A DNA stretch of 35,875 nt from contig SVQN01000026.1 in NCBI GenBank assembly GCA_015065295.1, positions 1 through 35,875 on the forward strand, written 5' to 3'. Position numbers and translations under genes: made by a program. Every line of letters begins with the position of its first letter. The first letter of the stretch is position 1. Below the pieces are notes generated by a model. The model did no database searches. It saw only the letters and a program-made list of their open reading frames with translations, and had not been told where the DNA came from. This DNA is from Oscillospiraceae bacterium. Lineage in GTDB: Bacteria > Bacillota > Clostridia > Oscillospirales > CAG-272. Of the stretch, positions 1 through 8,838 are shown one piece after another.

Positions 1-25
1 CGACACCTTGTCCTTCTATTTGTTT

Positions 26-87
26 AAAGTTTTTTGGAAAGGGGTTCGGGGAAAACCTTTTTGCAAAAAGGTTTTCCCCGAAAAAAA
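26..87 (+). repeat. Hairpin repeat, copy A
   Basis: An 18-bp perfect stem (45-62 with 65-82, loop GC) made of TTCGGGGAAAACCTTTTT and its complement. It is preceded by the flank AAAGTTTTTTGGAAAGGGG (27-44). The element ends one base before the TAA of the corrinoid gene (88-90), so it would form in the 3' end of that minus-strand mRNA. There is no clean T-run after the stem on the minus strand, so it is not a textbook terminator. Related copies lie at about 3964, 21056, 30280, 31820 and 32419. Confidence 0.85.
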
Positions 88-723
88 TTACTTTCTAAGA
101 TAAGCGATTGCTTCGTCGGATGCGGAGGCTGCGTCGGTGGTGTAGCAGTCTGCGCCGATCTTGTCGCAGTATTCCTGGGTGATCGGTGCGCCGCCGACCA
201 TGATGAATACGTTTTCACGGATGCCCTTTTCGGTAGCAACCTTGACTACGTTTTCCATTTCGTTCATGGTGGTGGTGAGAAGTGCGGAGCAGCAGATGAT
301 CTGTGCGTTGTTCGCAATTGCTTCTTCAACGAACTTTTCAGCGGATACGTCTACGCCGAGGTCAACAACGTTGATACCCTTGCCTTCGAGCATCATCTTA
401 ACGAGGTTCTTGCCGATGTCGTGGAGGTCGCCCTTAACGGTGCCGATGACAGCGGTGCCTGCGTCAGCCATTTCGCCGGAAGCCATGAGGGGCTTGAGAA
501 TGGTAACGCCTGCGTTCATTGCGCGTGCTGCGATCAGAACTTCGGGAACGTATACTTCGTTGTTCTTGAACTTTTCGCCGATGTTGCTCATGCCGGGGAG
601 CAGACCTTCGTCGAGGATTACCTTCGGTTCCACGCCGTCAGCAATTGCCTGGTTTACGAGTTCCTTAACAACCTTTACCTTACCGGTTTCGACCATTTTA
701 ATGAGTTCGGAAAAATCAGCCAT
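88..723 (-). CDS. Corrinoid (B12-binding) methyltransfer protein, MtbC/MtaC-like
   Basis: This 211-residue protein matches the stand-alone corrinoid proteins that carry a methyl group on cobalamin between a substrate methyltransferase and an acceptor methyltransferase. Residues 1-85 form the helical cap (VLIAARAMNAG is typical). From about 90 on comes the Rossmann-like B12 domain with GDLHDIG; D99, H101 and G104 form the DxHxxG signature, with H101 as the lower cobalt ligand. The later segments SALLTTTM and VGGAPIT also fit the family. Full length for the family. The start is set by AAGGAG seven bases upstream. Its methyltransferase partner is not in the window and may lie beyond the left edge, so the methyl donor (methylamine, methanol, methoxy compound) cannot be told. 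Confidence 0.93.
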   Translation of the reverse strand: MADFSELIKMVETGKVKVVKELVNQAIADGVEPKVILDEGLLPGMSNIGEKFKNNEVYVPEVLIAARAMNAGVTILKPLMASGEMADAGTAVIGTVKGDLHDIGKNLVKMMLEGKGINVVDLGVDVSAEKFVEEAIANNAQIICCSALLTTTMNEMENVVKVATEKGIRENVFIMVGGAPITQEYCDKIGADCYTTDAASASDEAIAYLRK

Positions 724-762
724 GTCAGTTCTCCTTTATATTGAGAATAGTTTTTTCATCTC

Positions 763-791
763 ATTATATCAATAAATCCGGCTTTCGTCAA
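763..791 (-). promoter_or_regulatory. Sigma-A promoter of the corrinoid gene
   Basis: On the minus strand TTGACG (786-791) and a perfect TATAAT (763-768) are separated by 17 bp, about 35-40 bp upstream of the corrinoid start codon. Confidence 0.8.
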
Positions 792-857
792 TAGATTTTT
801 GAGGTTTTGTCCGGAAAAATCCAAAATAAGAAAAAACAAATAGAATTGTTCTTTCCC

Positions 858-887
858 TTGACAGTCCCCGTCCGCCGGTGCTATAAT
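858..887 (+). promoter_or_regulatory. Sigma-A promoter of the ATPase leader
   Basis: Perfect TTGACA (858-863) and perfect TATAAT (882-887), 18-bp spacer. It predicts a transcript start near 894, giving a leader of about 175 nt before the ATPase start codon at 1070. Confidence 0.85.
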
Positions 888-926
888 CAAGTCAAATAAT
901 CCTTCCAATGAAAGCAGGTGGTTCCG

Positions 927-974
927 ATGAAACAACAAAAAACGCTGCGGTTCTGTGCCTGCTTTATGACATGA
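927..974 (+). CDS. Putative 15-residue leader peptide
   Basis: A short ORF, MKQQKTLRFCACFMT, starts about 33 nt after the predicted transcript start and has a modest ribosome site (AGGTGG, 6 bp upstream of ATG). The stem AAAGCAGG (911-918) / CCTGCTTT (958-965) covers its ribosome site and pairs it with its own last codons. Its stop falls in a 10-bp palindrome (971-980), and an intrinsic terminator follows 19 bp later. Position and size fit a translated attenuator peptide; no known leader peptide is recognised. That it is translated is inference. Confidence 0.5.
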   Translation: MKQQKTLRFCACFMT

Positions 975-992
975 TATCATAATCCGTTTCTC

Positions 993-1022
993 CACACATC
1001 CGTCAGCCGGGTGTGTTTTTTT
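993..1022 (+). terminator. Leader (attenuator-type) terminator
   Basis: CACAC (993-997) pairs with GTGTG (1011-1015) and CCG (1000-1002) with CGG (1008-1010) around loop TCAGC, followed by seven Ts (1016-1022). It lies between the leader ORF and the ATPase ribosome site. The 3' arm CCGGGTG can alternatively pair with CACCGCCCGG (1032-1041), and ATCCG (998-1002) with CGGAT (1039-1043), so competing folds are available. Confidence 0.7.
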
Positions 1023-1069
1023 ATTGGTTTTCACCGCCCGGATTTTTCAACTAAAGGAGGGATGTCCCT

Positions 1070-3355
1070 ATGAAACGACTTGCCGTACAGTTCATGACCC
1101 CGCAGACGGGCAATATCTTCGTCATCGTCCCCAGTGCCCCCGACCTCAGCTACCACGATAACGATCCCGTCTACTACTACAACGATATCGCCTTTGAATA
1201 CGAACAGCCCGGGAAACGCGACCACAGCATCCCCACCGTGGTCATCAAACTTCCTGTGGAAAACCTCATCGACGACGAATGTGCAAAGGAGAGTGATCTC
1301 ATGAAACGCCTGAAATATTATTTCAAACTCATGGAACGCGATACCGCGACCTACAATTACCGCGGCGAGGACAACAAACAGCATTCCCTCTATGACGGGG
1401 ATATGCTGATGTTCTATCCCGAACCCGAAGACCCCCTCGCCGGCGAACGCGACCCCGAACTTATCCACGATTCCACCTATTACGACGACAGCCACGCCTA
1501 CACCGTCGAGATGTCCAACAAAATGGCGAAGGACAAACCGACCGTCACCGTTGCCATCCCGACTGACGAAATCGACCCGCGCCTGCTTGACCTGTGGAAA
1601 AGTGCGGGAATTGACGCTCCCGCTGCCGCCAAAACCTCCGAAGCCGCACAGGACTATCTCCGTCAGGAAGAGGAAAAATCCCGCCTCAGAATCAACGTCA
1701 GCGGACGGAAAAATACCCTCATCCCGAAAATCGAGCCGCTTTCCTTCGCCGGAGAAGCCCTCACCACCGGACAGTTCGCCGCGATCCGCGATGCTGCCGC
1801 CGATTTCTGTCTCCGTGAATTCGCCCCGTATATCGACGCGCTCAACGCGGAACTCTACAACCGCAGCCGTCCCGATAAGGAAAACGGAAAATACTACCTC
1901 CATCGGCCGTCCGGCGAAATCCATACGAACAACGCCGCCTTTTTCGCCGTCTGTCCGCAGAAAGATTACGAAAACCTCGGCGGCATCCGCGTACGGCTCC
2001 TCGAAGACGGCGTGGAACGTCCGCCGAAACTCTGCCTGTGCATCCGGATGCAGATCCAGCTTCCGTTCAAGAAGCTCGAACGCTCCCAGAGAATGCTCTG
2101 CAAAGACCTCCCCGAAACCGTGGATATGTTCGCCGCACAGCTCAACCGGAAACGCCTTGCCGAAGCCTGCGAACTCGCCTACCGTCAGCAGAAAATCCGC
2201 GAATACCTCCGTACCAGCGACTACACCGCGTTCATCGCCAACGGAAGTATCCTCCCGCGCCTGTCCGACGGCGTCTCCCCGATGATGAACGCCATCCCGT
2301 TCCGCTCCACGCCGGAGGACGAAATCACCGTCTGCGGCGTCACCGGCATGGGAATCCGGCGCGGCGTGACCATCCTCACGGGCGGCGGTTATTCCGGAAA
2401 ATCCACCCTGCTCGACGCGATCGCATCCGGTATCTACAACCATACCATCGGCGACGGACGCGAACTCGTCCTGACCGACCCGACCGCCGTCAGCATCGCC
2501 GCCGAAGACGGACGGTGCGTCAAGAATACCAACATTTCCCCGTTCATCAAATGGCTCCCCGGCGGCGATACCACCGATTTTTCGACCGCGCACGCCTCCG
2601 GTTCGACCTCGCAGGCGGCGAATATCATGGAAGCCGTGGACATCGGCGCGTCGCTCCTGCTCATCGACGAAGACCGGAGCGCGACCAACTTCATGATCCG
2701 CGATAACAAGATGAAATCCCTCATCAAAAAAGAGCCGATCACCCCGTTCACCGACCGCGTACAGGAACTGTCCCGCAGAGGCGTGTCGACGATTCTGGTC
2801 ATCGGCGGAAGCGGCGAATACCTCGGCGTATGCGACCGCGTATATTTAATGGAAGATTACCTCATCCACGACGTGACCGAGCGCGCCGCCGAAATCTGGC
2901 AGACCGAGCGGAATCCGGACGAAATCATCATCCCCGCACCGGAAGTACGGTGGCATCAGGCGCGTACCCTCTCGGCGGAACATTTTTCGTCCTATCCGGA
3001 AGGCATGGGGACAGAAAAGCTCGAAGTCTCCGACATGGGCTTCCTCCTCATCGGGGACGAACAGATCGACATCCGCGGCCTGTACAACATCGCGTCCGAC
3101 GCACAGCGCAACGGCATCGCGTTCATCCTCCGGCAGATGTCGCTCCAGTTAAAACCTCAGACCACAGTGATCGACCTCGACGCGGAGCTTGACAGAATCT
3201 ACCGCAAAATCGAAACGGACGGCGTGGACTGCATCTTCTCGTCGTTCTTCACCACCGTGGACCGCTTCATCGACCTACCGCGCAAATGCGACGTCAAAAT
3301 GGTCATCCACCGGATGAGAAAAACAAAATGGCTAAGGACTAATGACGAATGGTGA
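1070..3355 (+). CDS. ABC-class P-loop ATPase (COG3044 / PF09818)
   Basis: 761 residues. The core matches the 'predicted ATPase of the ABC class' family: Walker A GGGYSGKST (438-446), the signature ASGSTSQAAN (509-518), a Walker B with the family's DEDRSATNF (533-541), then TDRVQELSRRGVSTILVIGGSGEY. The family has no transmembrane domain and its role is unknown. Roughly the first 190 residues are an extension rich in Asp, Tyr and Pro that I do not recognise, making the protein longer than the usual ~560. The start has AAGGAGG eight bases upstream. The last residues (KWLRTNDEW) are encoded by the left arm of a heptad repeat, so the C-terminus may have been altered by repeat insertion. Expression is probably set by the leader at 894-1069. 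Confidence 0.88.
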   Translation: MKRLAVQFMTPQTGNIFVIVPSAPDLSYHDNDPVYYYNDIAFEYEQPGKRDHSIPTVVIKLPVENLIDDECAKESDLMKRLKYYFKLMERDTATYNYRGEDNKQHSLYDGDMLMFYPEPEDPLAGERDPELIHDSTYYDDSHAYTVEMSNKMAKDKPTVTVAIPTDEIDPRLLDLWKSAGIDAPAAAKTSEAAQDYLRQEEEKSRLRINVSGRKNTLIPKIEPLSFAGEALTTGQFAAIRDAAADFCLREFAPYIDALNAELYNRSRPDKENGKYYLHRPSGEIHTNNAAFFAVCPQKDYENLGGIRVRLLEDGVERPPKLCLCIRMQIQLPFKKLERSQRMLCKDLPETVDMFAAQLNRKRLAEACELAYRQQKIREYLRTSDYTAFIANGSILPRLSDGVSPMMNAIPFRSTPEDEITVCGVTGMGIRRGVTILTGGGYSGKSTLLDAIASGIYNHTIGDGRELVLTDPTAVSIAAEDGRCVKNTNISPFIKWLPGGDTTDFSTAHASGSTSQAANIMEAVDIGASLLLIDEDRSATNFMIRDNKMKSLIKKEPITPFTDRVQELSRRGVSTILVIGGSGEYLGVCDRVYLMEDYLIHDVTERAAEIWQTERNPDEIIIPAPEVRWHQARTLSAEHFSSYPEGMGTEKLEVSDMGFLLIGDEQIDIRGLYNIASDAQRNGIAFILRQMSLQLKPQTTVIDLDAELDRIYRKIETDGVDCIFSSFFTTVDRFIDLPRKCDVKMVIHRMRKTKWLRTNDEW

Positions 3356-3432
3356 ATAACTATACACAACTTCCGTCAGCCGGAAGCCGTAAAATTATAT
3401 CCAGTCATTCACCATTAACCCTTAGTCCTTAG
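3332..3432. repeat. Heptad-repeat inverted pair between convergent genes
   Basis: Left arm 3332-3361 and the reverse complement of right arm 3403-3432 match at about 25 of 30 positions. Both arms are built on a 7-bp period, for example CTAAGGA/CTAATGA and TCCTTAG/CCCTTAG. A small stem CTTCCG (3370-3375) / CGGAAG (3381-3386) with loop TCAGC sits inside. The left arm contains the ATPase stop; the right arm follows the TAG of the minus-strand gene directly. The whole could fold as a bidirectional 3'-end hairpin. A third related arm lies at 18323-18352. Confidence 0.85.
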
Positions 3433-3433
3433 T

Positions 3434-3886
3434 CTATTCAAAGTCCTTGATTTTGTCCGCTTCTTCGCGCTCAAACGCGACGATTTCCCTGCACAGGGCT
3501 GTGACTTCCATGTCGCAGCCCTCTCTGTTCAGGCGGATCATCTGCCCTTCCAGATCGTCCACGCCCATGCGGGTGCCCTTTTCGATCATCTGCGCGATGT
3601 GGCGGTCGGACGAATTGAACAGCGTGTTCATCGCAATCCCGGCCTTCGCCATCGTTTTCTTCATGGCGGAGAGTTCCTGCGGACGGATGGAGCGTTTCCG
3701 CAGTTCGGCGGCGGTGCGGGCGGTGTAGTCGGAGTAGCGTTCGAGCTGGGAGGTCACGTTGGAAACGAGAAACTTGTCCGTGATTTTCGGGAGAACATCG
3801 CATAAACTTTCGGTGCCCATCTGCACGTTGCGGTACATGTGACCGAGCAGTTCGCCGGTATTTTCGGTGGTATGGGAAACTTTCAT
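3434..3886 (-). CDS. Hypothetical helical protein, 150 aa
   Basis: The protein is soluble, charged and almost wholly alpha-helical in appearance, with four or so amphipathic helices (for example CDVLPKITDKFLVSNVTSQL, SQLERYSDYTARTAAELRKR, a Met-rich AMKKTMAKAGIAMNTLF and a final REIVAFEREEADKI). This suggests a four-helix or ferritin-like bundle, but no di-iron motif is evident and I cannot name a family. GAGGT lies nine bases upstream of the ATG. It is transcribed convergently to the ATPase and has no clear operon partner. Full-length and intact. Confidence 0.75.
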   Translation of the reverse strand: MKVSHTTENTGELLGHMYRNVQMGTESLCDVLPKITDKFLVSNVTSQLERYSDYTARTAAELRKRSIRPQELSAMKKTMAKAGIAMNTLFNSSDRHIAQMIEKGTRMGVDDLEGQMIRLNREGCDMEVTALCREIVAFEREEADKIKDFE

Positions 3887-3963
3887 TGGATTTACCTCGT
3901 GAAATTACAGGATATCTTTATTCTCCCACATCTTATAAAAAATACTCTTCTTTTTCCCGATTT

Positions 3964-4018
3964 AAAAAGGTTTTTGAAGGGGTTCGGGGGAACTTTTTCC
4001 TCAAAAAAGTTCCCCCGA
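3964..4018 (+). repeat. Hairpin repeat, copy B
   Basis: Flank AAAAAGGTTTTTGAAGGGG (3964-3982), then a stem TCGGGGGAACTTTTT (3984-3998) with AAAAAGTTCCCCCGA (4004-4018), loop CCTCA. It sits in the 273-bp gap between two minus-strand genes, about 140 bp after the 801-residue lipoprotein gene ends. The rest of that gap shows no gene. Confidence 0.85.
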
Positions 4019-4159: not shown

Positions 4160-6565
4160 TCACTCATGCTCGCTCAGCCAGATACTCACGCGGGACTGGA
4201 TAACGTCCGCCGTGGATTCGGCGGTGGCATTGCCGGACAGATAGCGGCTGATCTCCTCGTTGATGATGTTCCGCAGCTCGGTTCGTGACAGTAAAGAATA
4301 CCACAGCGGAATCCCCGCCGTGTCCAGCATATTCTTTACCTCCCCGATCGCCGCACGGTCGAGCGTAACAAGCGTTCCCGGTCTTCCGTTGTAACGTCCG
4401 TCTCCGTCCAGCTTGCCGGCTGTGTCAAAACCGCCGACCGAACCGTTTTCGCCGTGGAAATAAAACACCTGATACCCTTCCAGCGCATCCAGATACTCGT
4501 CATAATCCGGCTTATAGGTTTTGAAAAAATACCCCGCTCCGATCTCATCGGAATGCGAATTTTCAAAATATGTCCGGTAATCATCTGCCGTCAGACGGCT
4601 TTCGATGAATTCCCATGCCGTTTCCACATCCCAGCAGTATGACGGAATCGCGTAAATACCCCCGTTGAAGTCGAGTTCCACACCGCTTCCGCACCGGTCA
4701 TCCACGGGACAGCCGATGTAATTCAGTTCAGTCGGACTTGTCACCCCGAACTGGTACGCCGCTTTCATGAATCTCGACGGCGACTGAAAAACGCCCGGAT
4801 CGGCAAGTTTGATCTTCCCGTTATGATACAGATTTTCCCCGCCGGCATCCACTTCCACCTGATCCAATGTGATCTCTCCCGCAAACAAAGCATCCAGATT
4901 GCTCGAACCGTGATCCATGTACAGCTGCGGTTCGGTCGGCAGAGATTTTGTAAATTCCAGAAGCCGCAGATAGTCCGGATCAAGGAAATCCGCTTCTCCG
5001 TCCCGGATAAAAGGTACGAACCCCAGGAAATTGAACAGCGTGTATTCCGCGTTCGTCTGCGAAATTTCTTCCATGAGATATTCTCCCTCTCCGAGACTTT
5101 CCGCAAAATCAAGGAATTCCGGAATTGACCATGTTTCCATATCGCCGATGGTATCGCGCCGTCCGGCGACAGTACTTATCATGAATTCCGGTACGATACC
5201 ATACAGACGCCCGTCTTCATCCTCCAGAGTATTCTTCACACAACCGTAAATCGTGTCCGGCGTAACTTTTCCGTCCATCAGTGTGTACAGATCGACGAAA
5301 TAGCCGTCCGCCGCATCGACAAGTTCCTGAAAATCAAAGGAAACCAGAAAAACGATGTCCGGCTGCAATACGCCTGTCGTCAGGTCAAGCATCAGCTTTG
5401 TGCGCCCCGCTCCCCAATCCTTTTCCGTATTGTATATGCTGTAGTCCAGTACCTCAATCCGCACATCCGTGTGGCTCTTGTTGAATTCCACCACCGCCTG
5501 TGTCAGCGAGGATTCCGGCTGAATACACGCCAGCGTCAGCGTTTCGATGGTTGACAGGTCGATTGTCGGGTCGGGACGGTACAGCCGCTGAAGAAAATAC
5601 ATCTTCTGCAATGCGGCACGTTCCGCCACCATGAACTCCCCGTCATACTCCCCGGGAATCCACGAGACATTCTGAACGTACTCGGCAGGAATTCCGGCAT
5701 CCAGAAAATCCATGATCTCGTCAAATACCGGTTCTTCTTCCGCCTCTGCGGTCAGCTTCCAGCGGTACACACCCTCGCTGTCCCACGCGGTCAGACAGCC
5801 GTCTCTGCACGACAGAATTTCCACTCCGCGGTAGGGATATTCATTGGAATGAAACCGTTCGGGCAGAACATACGATTCTGTTTCCGTCCCATCCTCCGCA
5901 AACCGTCCGAGATTCATGTTTCCGCTTTTTTCGTACACAATCCAGAACTCCGCGCCGTCCGCAAACAGCGCACAGGCTATCCCCGGCAGTTCGAACGCTC
6001 CTGTCCGGACAAAATTGTCATCCGCGAGGATGCAGGTATCGTTCCAGATCAGGGCAATCCCCTCGTCACGCTCGGCAAACAGCTTCCCGCTGTCGGCGGT
6101 ATCGTTGCTGTTCCCTTTTTCCCGCAGAACGGTGATGTCCGCCCACGCTTCCTGTTCCCCGTCAAACGAATACCGGATCAGGGAACGGTACGATTTCATT
6201 TCTTCCTCGTCATCCCACAGTCCCCAGACATAAATTCCGCGTTCCCCGAGAAACAACGCATCGCCGAAATCCTTTCCGTATTCGGTCAGCGGCATTTCCG
6301 AAAGAATATTGCCGTCCGCATCTGCCTGTACATAAAATATTCCGCTTTGTCCCGTTCCTGACTGTCCGCCGGTACCGTAAAGATAGGAATATCCGTTTTC
6401 CGTCCGCACCGTATTGCTGACCCGCAGGGTTTCCAGACCGTCCAGATGCTCAAACACCTGCCGGTACACCATCGTCCGGTATTCCGGCACTTCCTCCGTT
6501 CCGCATCCCGCGAACAGTCCGGTGAATGTCAGAATCATACCCAAAATCACCGCAAATTTTCTCAT
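4160..6565 (-). CDS. Solute-binding-like lipoprotein, 801 aa
   Basis: Signal peptide with lipobox LFAGC (Cys21), so a membrane-anchored surface lipoprotein. Residues about 30-335 are beta-rich with repeated short strands (GNILSEMPL, GIYVWGLWD, YSFDGEQ), resembling a propeller-like module. From about 341 (ETLTLACI) it reads as a family-1 extracellular solute-binding protein: SLTQAVVEFNKSH, QPDIVFL, YFVDLYTLMD, DGRLYGIVPEF. The C-terminus AESTADVIQSRVSIWLSEHE is nearly shared with the upstream neighbour, so the two are tandem paralogues. AGGAGG lies six bases before the ATG. The 92-bp gap to the upstream gene has no strong promoter, so the two are probably co-transcribed. No ABC permease is nearby; sugar or oligosaccharide binding is a guess. 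Confidence 0.85.
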   Translation of the reverse strand: MRKFAVILGMILTFTGLFAGCGTEEVPEYRTMVYRQVFEHLDGLETLRVSNTVRTENGYSYLYGTGGQSGTGQSGIFYVQADADGNILSEMPLTEYGKDFGDALFLGERGIYVWGLWDDEEEMKSYRSLIRYSFDGEQEAWADITVLREKGNSNDTADSGKLFAERDEGIALIWNDTCILADDNFVRTGAFELPGIACALFADGAEFWIVYEKSGNMNLGRFAEDGTETESYVLPERFHSNEYPYRGVEILSCRDGCLTAWDSEGVYRWKLTAEAEEEPVFDEIMDFLDAGIPAEYVQNVSWIPGEYDGEFMVAERAALQKMYFLQRLYRPDPTIDLSTIETLTLACIQPESSLTQAVVEFNKSHTDVRIEVLDYSIYNTEKDWGAGRTKLMLDLTTGVLQPDIVFLVSFDFQELVDAADGYFVDLYTLMDGKVTPDTIYGCVKNTLEDEDGRLYGIVPEFMISTVAGRRDTIGDMETWSIPEFLDFAESLGEGEYLMEEISQTNAEYTLFNFLGFVPFIRDGEADFLDPDYLRLLEFTKSLPTEPQLYMDHGSSNLDALFAGEITLDQVEVDAGGENLYHNGKIKLADPGVFQSPSRFMKAAYQFGVTSPTELNYIGCPVDDRCGSGVELDFNGGIYAIPSYCWDVETAWEFIESRLTADDYRTYFENSHSDEIGAGYFFKTYKPDYDEYLDALEGYQVFYFHGENGSVGGFDTAGKLDGDGRYNGRPGTLVTLDRAAIGEVKNMLDTAGIPLWYSLLSRTELRNIINEEISRYLSGNATAESTADVIQSRVSIWLSEHE

Positions 6566-6657
6566 AATGTCCTCCTGCTTTTTGAAGGTAATCTACTGTA
6601 TAGACGTTTCTGCTCCGCATTTTGTTCCATATTTCCGAAAATTTCCGCAAGTTTTAC

Positions 6658-8838
6658 TCACTCATGCTCACTCAGCCACAGCCCCACGCGGGACTGCACA
6701 ATATCCGCCGTGGATTCTGCCGTTTTCCCCATACCGAGAAACGCCGTCACTTCTTCCATCACAATCTCCTGAATTTCCGCCGGAACCGTCCGATACGCAG
6801 GTACGGTATCCAGAAATTCACAGAATTCCTCCGCAAAATCCGCTGCGTACACCTCCACATACGGCCGTCCCGTGTTGTCCTGCACCGTCAGCTCGCCGCC
6901 GCCCGAATATTTGCCGACCCGGTCGGTATAAATCTGGTACGGATACACGCCGTCCACCGCTTCCCATGCCTTCATGACCGATTTCAGTGCCGGAAGGGCG
7001 TCCATCCCGCGCACCCTCTCGGTTCTGCCGATCAGCGATTCCTCCGACAGCAGGAAGTTCAGAAACGCCATCGCCCCCTCCTTGTTCCCGCTTTCCGCCG
7101 ACACGGCATAATACTGGTCGGAATGAATCAGACACGCGCCGCCTTCCGACGACGGCAGTCCGACCACGGTTCCGCTGTTCCATCCGCCGAACACGCTGTT
7201 TATCATGGCGTAGGACGCATAATTGTTGACCGCATAGCCGTACAGCAGGATTTTGTCCGCCGCAAAGGGATTTTCCTCCGGCGACGATTTCCACTGCGAC
7301 TTCTCCGGCAGAGACGCGATATAGTCCAGCATCGCCGCGAACGAACCGTCGCCGAACCGGCAGGTATTGGTCTCCGTGTCCACCCATTCGGACAGCATGA
7401 ACCCCAGCATCGCTGTCATGGATTCCTGTGAATCATCTTCGGAAAACCGCATCCCCTCCGGCAGATTCCGCGCGGTCATCAGAAAGGCATCGACATCCCA
7501 CACGTCATAATCGGGCAGATTCGCCGTTTTCGCGGAAAAAACCGATATCTCGAACGTCCTCGGCAGACCGTACAGCTTCCCGCCGATTTCGCTTGCCTCC
7601 CGGACACTGCCGAACAGATCGTCTGCGGAAAATTCATCGTCCATCAGGGAATACAGGTCGGCGAGCAGTCCTTTGTCCGCGTACTTCGCCACCTCGTCCA
7701 TCGAGCGGAACAGCAGCAGATCGGCAGTTTCCCCGCGCAGGATTGCCGCATCCAGCCCGCTCATTTCTGCGGCATGACCTTCGGCTTCCCCGTAATTCTC
7801 GCAGATCACCTGATATTCCGTCTGTGCGCCGTTGAACTCCACCGCCGCCATTTCGATATTGCTCGTTCCGCTGTTCTCGTATCCAACGCGGATCACCGTT
7901 TTTTCAACTTCGCGGTCGGGTGCGCCGGTAAATTTCAGGATCCGGTTTTCGCCGTCGTGAATGTAGATCGTTTCCGGCGCGACGACTGCAATTTCCGGAA
8001 TGCGGTTGGTCATAAACCCGCAGTTGACCCAGTTCATCAGCGGAACGCTTTCCCCGCCGACTTCACAGCCGATCAGTTCCTCGCCGCCGTTGTAGTAAAA
8101 ATCATAGCCGTTTCCCGGATAAATGGTCTCGGTATTCTCCGGCATCTGCGCCAGCGCGTCTTTCCACGCGGCATCCTCCGTCAGCGAACCGTCCGCACCG
8201 ACCGCATAACAGAAGCCCTTCCCCCAGACACGGACAGCACCGTCCGTTTCCAGAACGCCAAAGATATCCGCCGGAAGCGTGTGGCTTTTCACGAGATTCC
8301 CCGCATTGTCCACGAGCAGCAGGGTCGATTCCGCCCCGATGTACCACGTTCCGTCCTTCCAGACAACCGAAGGCATCCGGGACAGCCGGTCGCCGACGTC
8401 CGTAAATTCGTCCAGACGCTTTTCCCAGACGACCGTACCGTCCGCTACGGAATGCAGGATGTACCCCTCTTTCTTCTGAAGATCGTCGTGGTCGGACAGT
8501 ATGAACAGATACCCTTCCTCTCCGACCGCGAACACCGTGGCATACGCCATCCCCGGCACATTCTCGTAAGTGAAGGAATCGTCCGCCGGATCGAGAATTA
8601 CGACCGACGCAAGCCGTTCTTCCCCGTCGATCATGGTGGTGTACATATAGATTTTCCCGTCCCGGAGGGTCATATTCCGGATATAGGTGATCCGTTCGTC
8701 CATTTCCAGAACGGTTTTCTCATACACGCCGGTCAGCGTGGTCACGGAATTGTCCCTCTCCGGCAGTTCGGATGCCGTACACGCGGTAAACAGCAGGAGC
8801 AGGGTCACAAGTACTGCAAAAATTCTCCGATAAGTCAT
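6658..8838 (-). CDS. Solute-binding-like lipoprotein, 726 aa, paralogue of the next gene
   Basis: Lipobox LFTAC (Cys20). Same design as its downstream neighbour: a beta-rich N-terminal half (about 30-310, e.g. DGKIYMYTTM, DGTWYIGAES, IYIHDGENRILKF) followed by a solute-binding domain from about 315 (KTVIRVGYENSG), with LLADLYSLMDDEFSADDLF, KLYGLPRTFEISVF and EGAMAFLNFLLSEES. It ends in AESTADIVQSRVGLWLSEHE. AAGGAGG lies eight bases upstream of ATG. It is first in a two-gene unit behind a consensus promoter covered by a 40-bp palindrome. The ligand is unknown and no permease is adjacent, so a sensing or scavenging role is as likely as transport. Confidence 0.85.
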   Translation of the reverse strand: MTYRRIFAVLVTLLLLFTACTASELPERDNSVTTLTGVYEKTVLEMDERITYIRNMTLRDGKIYMYTTMIDGEERLASVVILDPADDSFTYENVPGMAYATVFAVGEEGYLFILSDHDDLQKKEGYILHSVADGTVVWEKRLDEFTDVGDRLSRMPSVVWKDGTWYIGAESTLLLVDNAGNLVKSHTLPADIFGVLETDGAVRVWGKGFCYAVGADGSLTEDAAWKDALAQMPENTETIYPGNGYDFYYNGGEELIGCEVGGESVPLMNWVNCGFMTNRIPEIAVVAPETIYIHDGENRILKFTGAPDREVEKTVIRVGYENSGTSNIEMAAVEFNGAQTEYQVICENYGEAEGHAAEMSGLDAAILRGETADLLLFRSMDEVAKYADKGLLADLYSLMDDEFSADDLFGSVREASEIGGKLYGLPRTFEISVFSAKTANLPDYDVWDVDAFLMTARNLPEGMRFSEDDSQESMTAMLGFMLSEWVDTETNTCRFGDGSFAAMLDYIASLPEKSQWKSSPEENPFAADKILLYGYAVNNYASYAMINSVFGGWNSGTVVGLPSSEGGACLIHSDQYYAVSAESGNKEGAMAFLNFLLSEESLIGRTERVRGMDALPALKSVMKAWEAVDGVYPYQIYTDRVGKYSGGGELTVQDNTGRPYVEVYAADFAEEFCEFLDTVPAYRTVPAEIQEIVMEEVTAFLGMGKTAESTADIVQSRVGLWLSEHE

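Follow-up and report, generated by a model that had tools for sequence, protein, structure and literature searches.

A conserved short-ORF leader before a long-form COG3044 ATPase gene has the sequence features of a ribosome-sensing transcription attenuator

Introduction

What signal turns on a conserved ATPase for which the accessible open-licence literature states no bacterial role, and why do a short open reading frame (ORF) and a terminator stand between its promoter and its start codon? The question arises near the left end of a contig from an Oscillospiraceae bacterium (SVQN01000026.1, assembly GCA_015065295.1; the whole 35,875-nt stretch analysed is called the window here). An initial annotation had described a perfect promoter, a 15-codon ORF with a ribosome site, a stem hiding that site, an intrinsic terminator and an alternative pairing that would break it, all stacked before the gene of a COG3044 ABC-class ATPase, and had read the whole as ribosome-mediated attenuation of the kind used by resistance genes. 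It knew of no such leader for COG3044, and searches of the accessible open-licence literature likewise gave no description of one, nor any of the regulation of COG3044, of PF09818/MRB1590, or of an ABC-class ATPase with antibiotics.

Results

A short ORF, a terminator and competing helices precede the ATPase gene

Three promoter-like sites were found in window positions 1–4000, and only the one before the leader matches the consensus at 12 of 12 positions (Table 1). Behind it, a stem between AAAGCAGG and CCTGCTTT covers the first bases of the leader Shine–Dalgarno sequence (SD), and this SD–ORF duplex exceeds 200 dinucleotide shuffles at p 0.015. None of 200 shuffles of positions 976–1024 folds as well as the terminator (z −4.1), and the alternative pairing of 943–958 with 992–1007 reaches a dG of −14.1 (p 0.025, shuffles). 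The leader elements named in the initial annotation are all borne out by these values. Folded as a whole, the 182-nt leader exceeds its shuffles in stability only slightly (z −1.84, equalled by 8 of the 200), which makes conservation the real evidence. Rfam 15 gave no leader match above the gathering score for window positions 700–1200 and seven relatives.

Erm-type translational attenuators hide the SD of the main gene in a conserved leader hairpin. In the full-length minimum free energy fold, the SD of the main gene is paired with a 5′ UCCUUCC, a pairing that by eye is weaker in two relatives, L030 and L031. The same fold pairs TTGGTTTTCACCGCCC (window 1023–1038, directly past the terminator and largely conserved in both relatives) with the leader SD and start region; this segment may re-close the leader ORF in read-through mRNA.

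Table 1 Features of the leader and the ATPase gene in the window
Feature	Position	Strand	Evidence or remark
Sigma-A-type promoter: TTGACA 858–863, TATAAT 882–887, 18-nt spacer, TG before −10	858–887	+	12/12 consensus matches
Entire leader, span of the match to covariance model R1	905–1024	+	33.7 bits, E 4.8e-6
Segment 1, leader-ORF ribosome-binding region	911–926	+	SD-like AGGTGG 916–921 overlaps stem arm AAAGCAGG 911–918
Leader ORF, 15 codons, MKQQKTLRFCACFMT*	927–974	+	ORF homologues at L030 and L031
Segment 2a, antiterminator 5′ strand CGCTGCGGTTCTGTGC	943–958	+	Begins 16 nt past the A of ATG; kept in relatives
Segment 2b, anti-SD CCTGCTTT (anti-antiterminator)	958–965	+	Partner is 911–918
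Segment 3, antiterminator 3′ strand including terminator 5′ arm	992–1007	+	Duplex with 943–958
Intrinsic terminator: hairpin 994–1016, T-run to 1022	994–1022	+	Sequence and folding
ATPase-gene ribosome site AAAGGAGG	1053–1060	+	Sequence
Long-form COG3044/PF09818 ABC-class ATPase, 761 aa	1070–3355	+	PF09818 E 3.7e-98; MRB1590_C E 8.3e-8

The arrangement is conserved among long-form COG3044 loci

L030 and L031, the two closest relatives, whose protein is ~88% identical to that of the window, have the promoter, the SD with its ORF, the stem, the terminator and also the alternative pairing, and CCTGCTT in the anti-SD region as well as CACACATCCG and CAGCCGGGTGTGTTTTTTT in the terminator are invariant among the three leaders. 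In distant members of the genus and in other genera of the family the arrangement is kept while the letters differ. An automatic rule (SD, ATG, ORF of 3–45 codons and terminator before the gene) recovered it at 41 of 48 long-form COG3044 loci (L029 left out of the 48) and at 0 of 30 canonical COG3044 loci, the latter being the 30 best-scoring of the class-genome COG3044 matches and coming from other bacterial families, so that gene type and lineage are confounded in this comparison. The expectation in the initial annotation that relatives would share the ORF and the terminator was thus upheld.

Six of the seven loci missed by the rule (L021, L028, L032, L082, L083 and L099) had a leader by eye, and the seventh, L101, is leader-like. 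No leader was seen at the long-form locus G011:C260 (L029), nor at L027, L106 or L114; these and L101 stand outside the curated set used below, together with the leaders of L080, L092 and L100, which are partial or cut by contig ends.

A covariance model, R1, was built from 21 relatives, two of them from the genus of the window and the window itself excluded. Over the 35,875 bases of the window, the leader is its sole match at E ≤ 1. Canonical COG3044 loci, rejected as leader carriers by the automatic rule, gave one weak R1 match (E 0.09) in 114,849 bases. Two further features recur within the family: downstream of the first terminator many of L070–L094 have another hairpin, GCACCCGNAGGGGTGC, with T after it, and some leaders contain an extra short ORF that overlaps the COG3044 start.

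In most leaders the antiterminator begins at a similar distance from the start codon

Sixty leaders were curated by eye, of which 45 remained after an 80% identity cut; four of these had no terminator by rule, leaving 41, and one terminator lay beyond +135, leaving 40 for the analyses of spacing and arm swapping. The 5′ edge of the antiterminator falls 15–20 nt past the A of the ATG in 28 of the 40, against 5.4 expected from shuffles, and 100,000 simulations never gave more than 17. Since the search for the edge began at +10, the clustering at +15 to +20 is not an edge effect. The 30S toeprint of Bacillus subtilis vmlR lies 16 nt downstream of the start-codon A in the accessible text of PMC9226507, so the antiterminator begins just beyond an initiating ribosome. 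The stop codon of the leader ORF is located from 6 nt before to 16 nt after the 3′ end of the anti-SD in 36 of 40 leaders, and because most ORFs end near the anti-SD, a freely translating ribosome would cover the antiterminator strand.

Partition-function folds of transcripts ending at the terminator loop are in line with this geometry. Masking a ribosome at the start raised the expected number of antiterminator pairs from 5.8 to 11.2 (up in 39 of 40) and masking it over the antiterminator strand lowered the number to 2.7, although both shifts are partly built into the masking, the gain because the antiterminator strand is set free by construction once the SD is masked. What is conserved looks to be the position that an initiating ribosome would occupy.

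We put at roughly 0.7 the probability that the window leader is a ribosome-mediated transcription attenuator that senses a ribosome arrested on the leader start codon or immediately past it; most likely it would work as vmlR does, with a start-stalled ribosome freeing the antiterminator. From the sequences we infer three states of such a switch. With no ribosome on the leader, the SD would be engaged by the 3′ portion of the ORF and the antiterminator strand tied up, the terminator would form and the gene would be off. In normal translation, the ribosome would sweep over the antiterminator strand and stop near the anti-SD, and the terminator would again form and keep the gene off. A ribosome that had stalled on the opening codons would hold the SD and leave the bases from about +16 free to pair with the 5′ arm of the terminator, transcription would continue and the COG3044 ATPase would be made. 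Candidate triggers of this third state are inhibitors of initiation or early elongation (for example pleuromutilins, lincosamides and streptogramin A) or slow initiation. A leader that appears built to respond to jammed ribosomes hints that the ATPase may help cells cope with blocked protein synthesis.

The downstream gene encodes a patchily distributed ATPase

The protein scores 328.5 bits against PF09818 (Pfam cut-off 23.2), in agreement with the conserved COG3044 ATPase of the initial annotation, and its Walker A motif, GGGYSGKST, is invariant in alignment A2. Its relatives of solved structure, as judged by sequence, are PDB 5d6a, a predicted ABC-class ATPase, and MRB1590 of T. brucei, both related to it in the ATPase domain. 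MRB1590 forms a dimer with an RNA-binding pore in the accessible text of PMC4538832; its N-terminal RNA-binding part has no sequence match in the window ATPase, and it acts in mitochondrial RNA editing in a trypanosome. An identity as an ABC-F ribosome protection protein was rejected, since the protein has one PF09818 stretch, not two ABC domains, and no NCBIfam match at E ≤ 0.001; searches for a defence-system or NCBIfam identity were likewise without match. A fold model of the protein had a mean pLDDT of 41.9 and was too poor for use. Carriage on plasmids or phages was also set aside, as such records (11 plasmid and 3 phage) held only relatives below 60% identity.

COG3044/PF09818 is present in 47 of 391 class genomes, and 5 of the 391 have a COG3044 match at E ≤ 1e-150. 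Protein searches, with the shorter paralog counted, matched in 14 of 25 genomes of the genus and 39 of 196 of the family, a patchy distribution. The genome of the window itself has a further COG3044 gene, shorter than the first and preceded by a leader of its own (G000:C50:25199-26431, L002), as seen also at L017; R1 finds the L002 leader weakly (E 0.017), and here the ORF segment GAATACATTGCAG pairs with the segment directly before the T-run, a layout different from that of the window leader. Beside some COG3044 genes lie tRNA genes (L072 3624–3707, L074 3644–3724, L079 921–1081), possibly as insertion sites. Further along the window, on the minus strand at 4160–8838, two large adjacent ORFs of 801 and 726 aa end alike at the C terminus (AESTAD..QSRV..WLSEHE) and seem to encode related lipoprotein-like proteins.

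The same leader class precedes an ABC-F gene and ABC exporter genes

Searching 196 family genomes with R1 returned 41 matches at E ≤ 1e-4, 17 of them training sequences. By reading, the gene downstream is a long-form COG3044 in 21 cases, the shorter paralog in 5 and a decayed COG3044 in 5; others are a Lsa-family ABC-F (1), ABC exporters (3), a methyltransferase (1) and unassigned genes (2), and in the last three cases the contig ends or no gene follows. Decay was called by tblastn at G585, G431 and G472:C20, and more weakly at G478, by a match of E 0.011, and at G528, by an N-terminal motif only. Some leaders seem to have outlived their gene: those of L195 (G020), L146, L147, L148 and L144 look intact, with COG3044 gone or decayed. 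Of the 33 weaker family matches (E above 1e-4), 5 have a COG3044 gene downstream, that of the window being one, and none of the seven weak stretches read (L158–L164) has a convincing leader. A second model, R2, made from leaders of the genus of the window, gave 11 strong matches in 25 genus genomes (9 of them training sequences). Long-form COG3044 follows ten of these, and the remaining one, in G020, is an orphan leader. In 391 class genomes, the five R1 matches at E ≤ 1e-3 are the window, two further leaders before COG3044, an exporter locus (L207) and one spurious-looking hit.

At L155, an ABC-F gene stands directly behind the leader and passes the NCBIfam Lsa cut-off (762 over 750). The ABC-F at L146 (G472:C20) starts 458 nt past the leader, and the one cut-off that its score clears is that of the general ribosomal-protection model (464 over 380); this gene was rejected as a second direct case because a decayed COG3044 lies in between (tblastn E 4e-11). 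The idea that Lsa genes as a rule go with this leader was rejected as well: the 196 family genomes contain 21 Lsa-like genes, one upstream being cut by its contig, and only one of the 20 upstreams read (up to 420 nt) bears the leader directly. Several of the other Lsa genes have tiny ORFs of their own (for example MYIG, MRK, MSK and MKL), similar in size to ABC-F upstream ORFs (uORFs) in the accessible text of PMC10201436.

Four ABC-exporter genes lie directly behind an R1 leader (L151, L156, L157 and L207). By eye, a second half-transporter gene follows in the first three, and the L207 exporter, from another family, resembles the other leader-bearing exporters. The exporters match ABC exporter models only below the NCBIfam cut-offs; the L157 protein resembles ABCB-type exporters and YheI (E 2e-48), which we take to be BmrC. 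Searches with tblastn found no COG3044 remnant at the exporter and methyltransferase loci, save a match of E 0.008 inside the L157 exporter itself. The methyltransferase (L154 263–1069) is probably SAM-dependent and stands behind a leader of the L082/L104 kind. In all four exporter leaders the antiterminator begins at +38 to +52, which suggests a later stall site; in the L155 leader it begins at +39.

The presence of the leader directly before a Lsa ABC-F and exporters makes translation inhibitors a plausible signal. Tentatively, and at somewhat less than even odds, we propose that long-form COG3044 is a novel type of ATPase of the translation-stress or antibiotic response, unrelated to ABC-F and belonging to a small regulon joined by one modular RNA, in which the distance from start codon to antiterminator would choose the stall that is read (about +16 to +21 for the start codon, as before most long-form COG3044 genes, and about +38 to +52 for later stalls, as before the exporters).

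The leader could alternatively gauge initiation capacity or growth state ((p)ppGpp, cold, ribosome assembly defects) through the frequency or duration of ribosome occupancy at the SD, antibiotics then not being the natural signal; vmlR too is raised by ribosome assembly defects, with (p)ppGpp involved, in the accessible text of PMC9226507. The anatomy would be identical under either reading, and the ABC-F link is a single direct case. Against a growth-state gauge speaks the occurrence of the leader class before exporter genes as well as before that ABC-F. The patchiness of COG3044 also argues against it, being like that of many accessory resistance genes, which are often patchy in distribution. 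We consider this reading unlikely.

Some paired positions change together, and the RNA arrangement is kept across differing peptides

A helix between the SD region and the ORF was significant (p ≤ 0.05, dinucleotide shuffles) in 31 of the 45 non-redundant leaders; at L098 it was not found (p 0.76, shuffles). Among ordinary gene starts called mechanically within these loci, 8 of 124 reached that threshold. Pairing of the ORF with the terminator arm reached p ≤ 0.05 in 19 of 41 leaders and was not above shuffles (p > 0.05) in the other 22, and in one group (L082, L083, L015, L104) the antiterminator is unconvincing. When arms were swapped among the 40 leaders, own arms paired at a mean of −13.43 kcal/mol against −11.50 kcal/mol for foreign ones; in the 22 leaders that lack CGGATG, own arms gave −12.53 against a permutation mean of −10.27. 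In each comparison 0 of 20,000 permutations were as good, although the leaders share ancestry, so that these p-values are not independent and give strength rather than exact probability.

In alignment A3 (21 leaders, window excluded), pairs form in 95.5% of cells for the SD helix plus terminator and in 94.5% for the antiterminator; with the partners slid, the values are at most 48.2% and 45.5%, respectively. Both bases have changed in 4 of the 9 pairs that make up the antiterminator, in 2 of the 8 in the terminator and in none of the 7 in the SD helix; one compatible change, CGGATG/CATCCG to CGAATG/CATTCG, is found in two similar leaders (L078, L084). Together, the anatomy, helix tests and swap test support, at the level of sequence, the ribosome-mediated attenuation architecture proposed in the initial annotation. 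A plain promoter-proximal terminator beside a fortuitous or decaying short ORF, with no conditional switch, would fit the mild stability of the whole leader (z −1.84) and the 22 leaders with no significant antiterminator; set against the SD helix, the swap test, the +16 spacing and the compatible changes in many leaders, it is very improbable.

Through the family the leader peptide and its codons vary, and the RNA arrangement is kept. Of the 60 leaders, 34 have a CGGATG-type motif between +10 and +40, which lies in frame 0 in 10 cases, in frame 1 in 11 and in frame 2 in 13 (similar leaders counted apart). Leader ORFs are 14–25 codons long in 39 of 40, and that of L077 has 4 codons only. Read in frame 0, all 40 leaders have a stop ahead of the terminator, and read in frame 2, 23 of them do; frame 1 is uninformative because most starts read ATGA. 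Conserved regulatory codons of the kind that mark trp-type amino-acid attenuators were not found, as both peptide and frame vary. The label of leader peptide from the initial annotation is therefore misleading, in that the RNA arrangement around a short ORF is conserved and the encoded peptide is not. Attenuation by a pause at particular codons for want of a charged tRNA (such as the Cys codons of CAC in the window) or by a nascent-peptide stall, to which the CACF common to the window leader, L030 and L031 would lend itself, was rejected as the main mechanism on account of the differing peptides, the use of all three frames and the four-codon ORF of L077, and is marginally less probable again than the plain terminator.

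Discussion

The anatomy, conservation, compatible changes and spacing described above can be read directly from comparison of the leaders; the three states, the inducing drugs and a role of the ATPase under blocked translation are inferred from them. A leader that apparently reads jammed ribosomes would provide the first concrete, testable signal for long-form COG3044, and R1 provides a searchable RNA model for candidate translation-stress genes in uncultured gut Clostridia. The spacing of the leader further suggests a simple rule for which stall such switches detect.

The class of mechanism is already known. As described in the accessible text of Takada et al. 2022 (PMC9226507), vmlR of B. 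subtilis shares with the leader a uORF, an anti-antiterminator hairpin, an antiterminator and an intrinsic terminator, and its inducers stall ribosomes at initiation. The leader is a candidate member of the vmlR-type attenuators on its sequence features, which comprise promoter, uORF and terminator, an antiterminator that excludes the terminator, and an anti-antiterminator hairpin. The likeness is one of layout, with differences: in that text the vmlR uORF has 3 codons, far from the usual leader-ORF length here; its SD is single-stranded and precedes the hairpin, whereas the SD of the COG3044 leader is part of it; and vmlR encodes an ABC-F, whereas this leader precedes a COG3044 ATPase.

The cplR and lsaA genes of Clostridioides difficile also have short uORFs, and in cplR the uORF lies inside a 5′ hairpin followed by a terminator, as in the COG3044 leader (accessible text of PMC10201436). 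By the same source, these uORFs are thought to be stalled with little need for context, but they have only 3–4 codons (MRI, MAGN), no COG3044 is involved, and the cplR terminator also hides the main SD. The likeness to drug attenuators drawn in the initial annotation stands in part: the leader does occur before one Lsa ABC-F and before exporters, and its nearest models among the studied systems consulted are vmlR and cplR rather than tet(M). The bmrB leader of BmrCD provides a precedent in which an ABC drug exporter is under ribosome-mediated transcription attenuation (accessible text of PMC4191407), and we suspect, likening them by description rather than by leader sequence, that the leaders before exporters regulate as bmrB does. 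Beside these systems, and as far as the accessible literature shows, what is new here is COG3044 as the family that would be controlled, an RNA with no Rfam 15 match, an SD placed inside the anti-antiterminator, and a leader common to exporter genes and an ABC-F.
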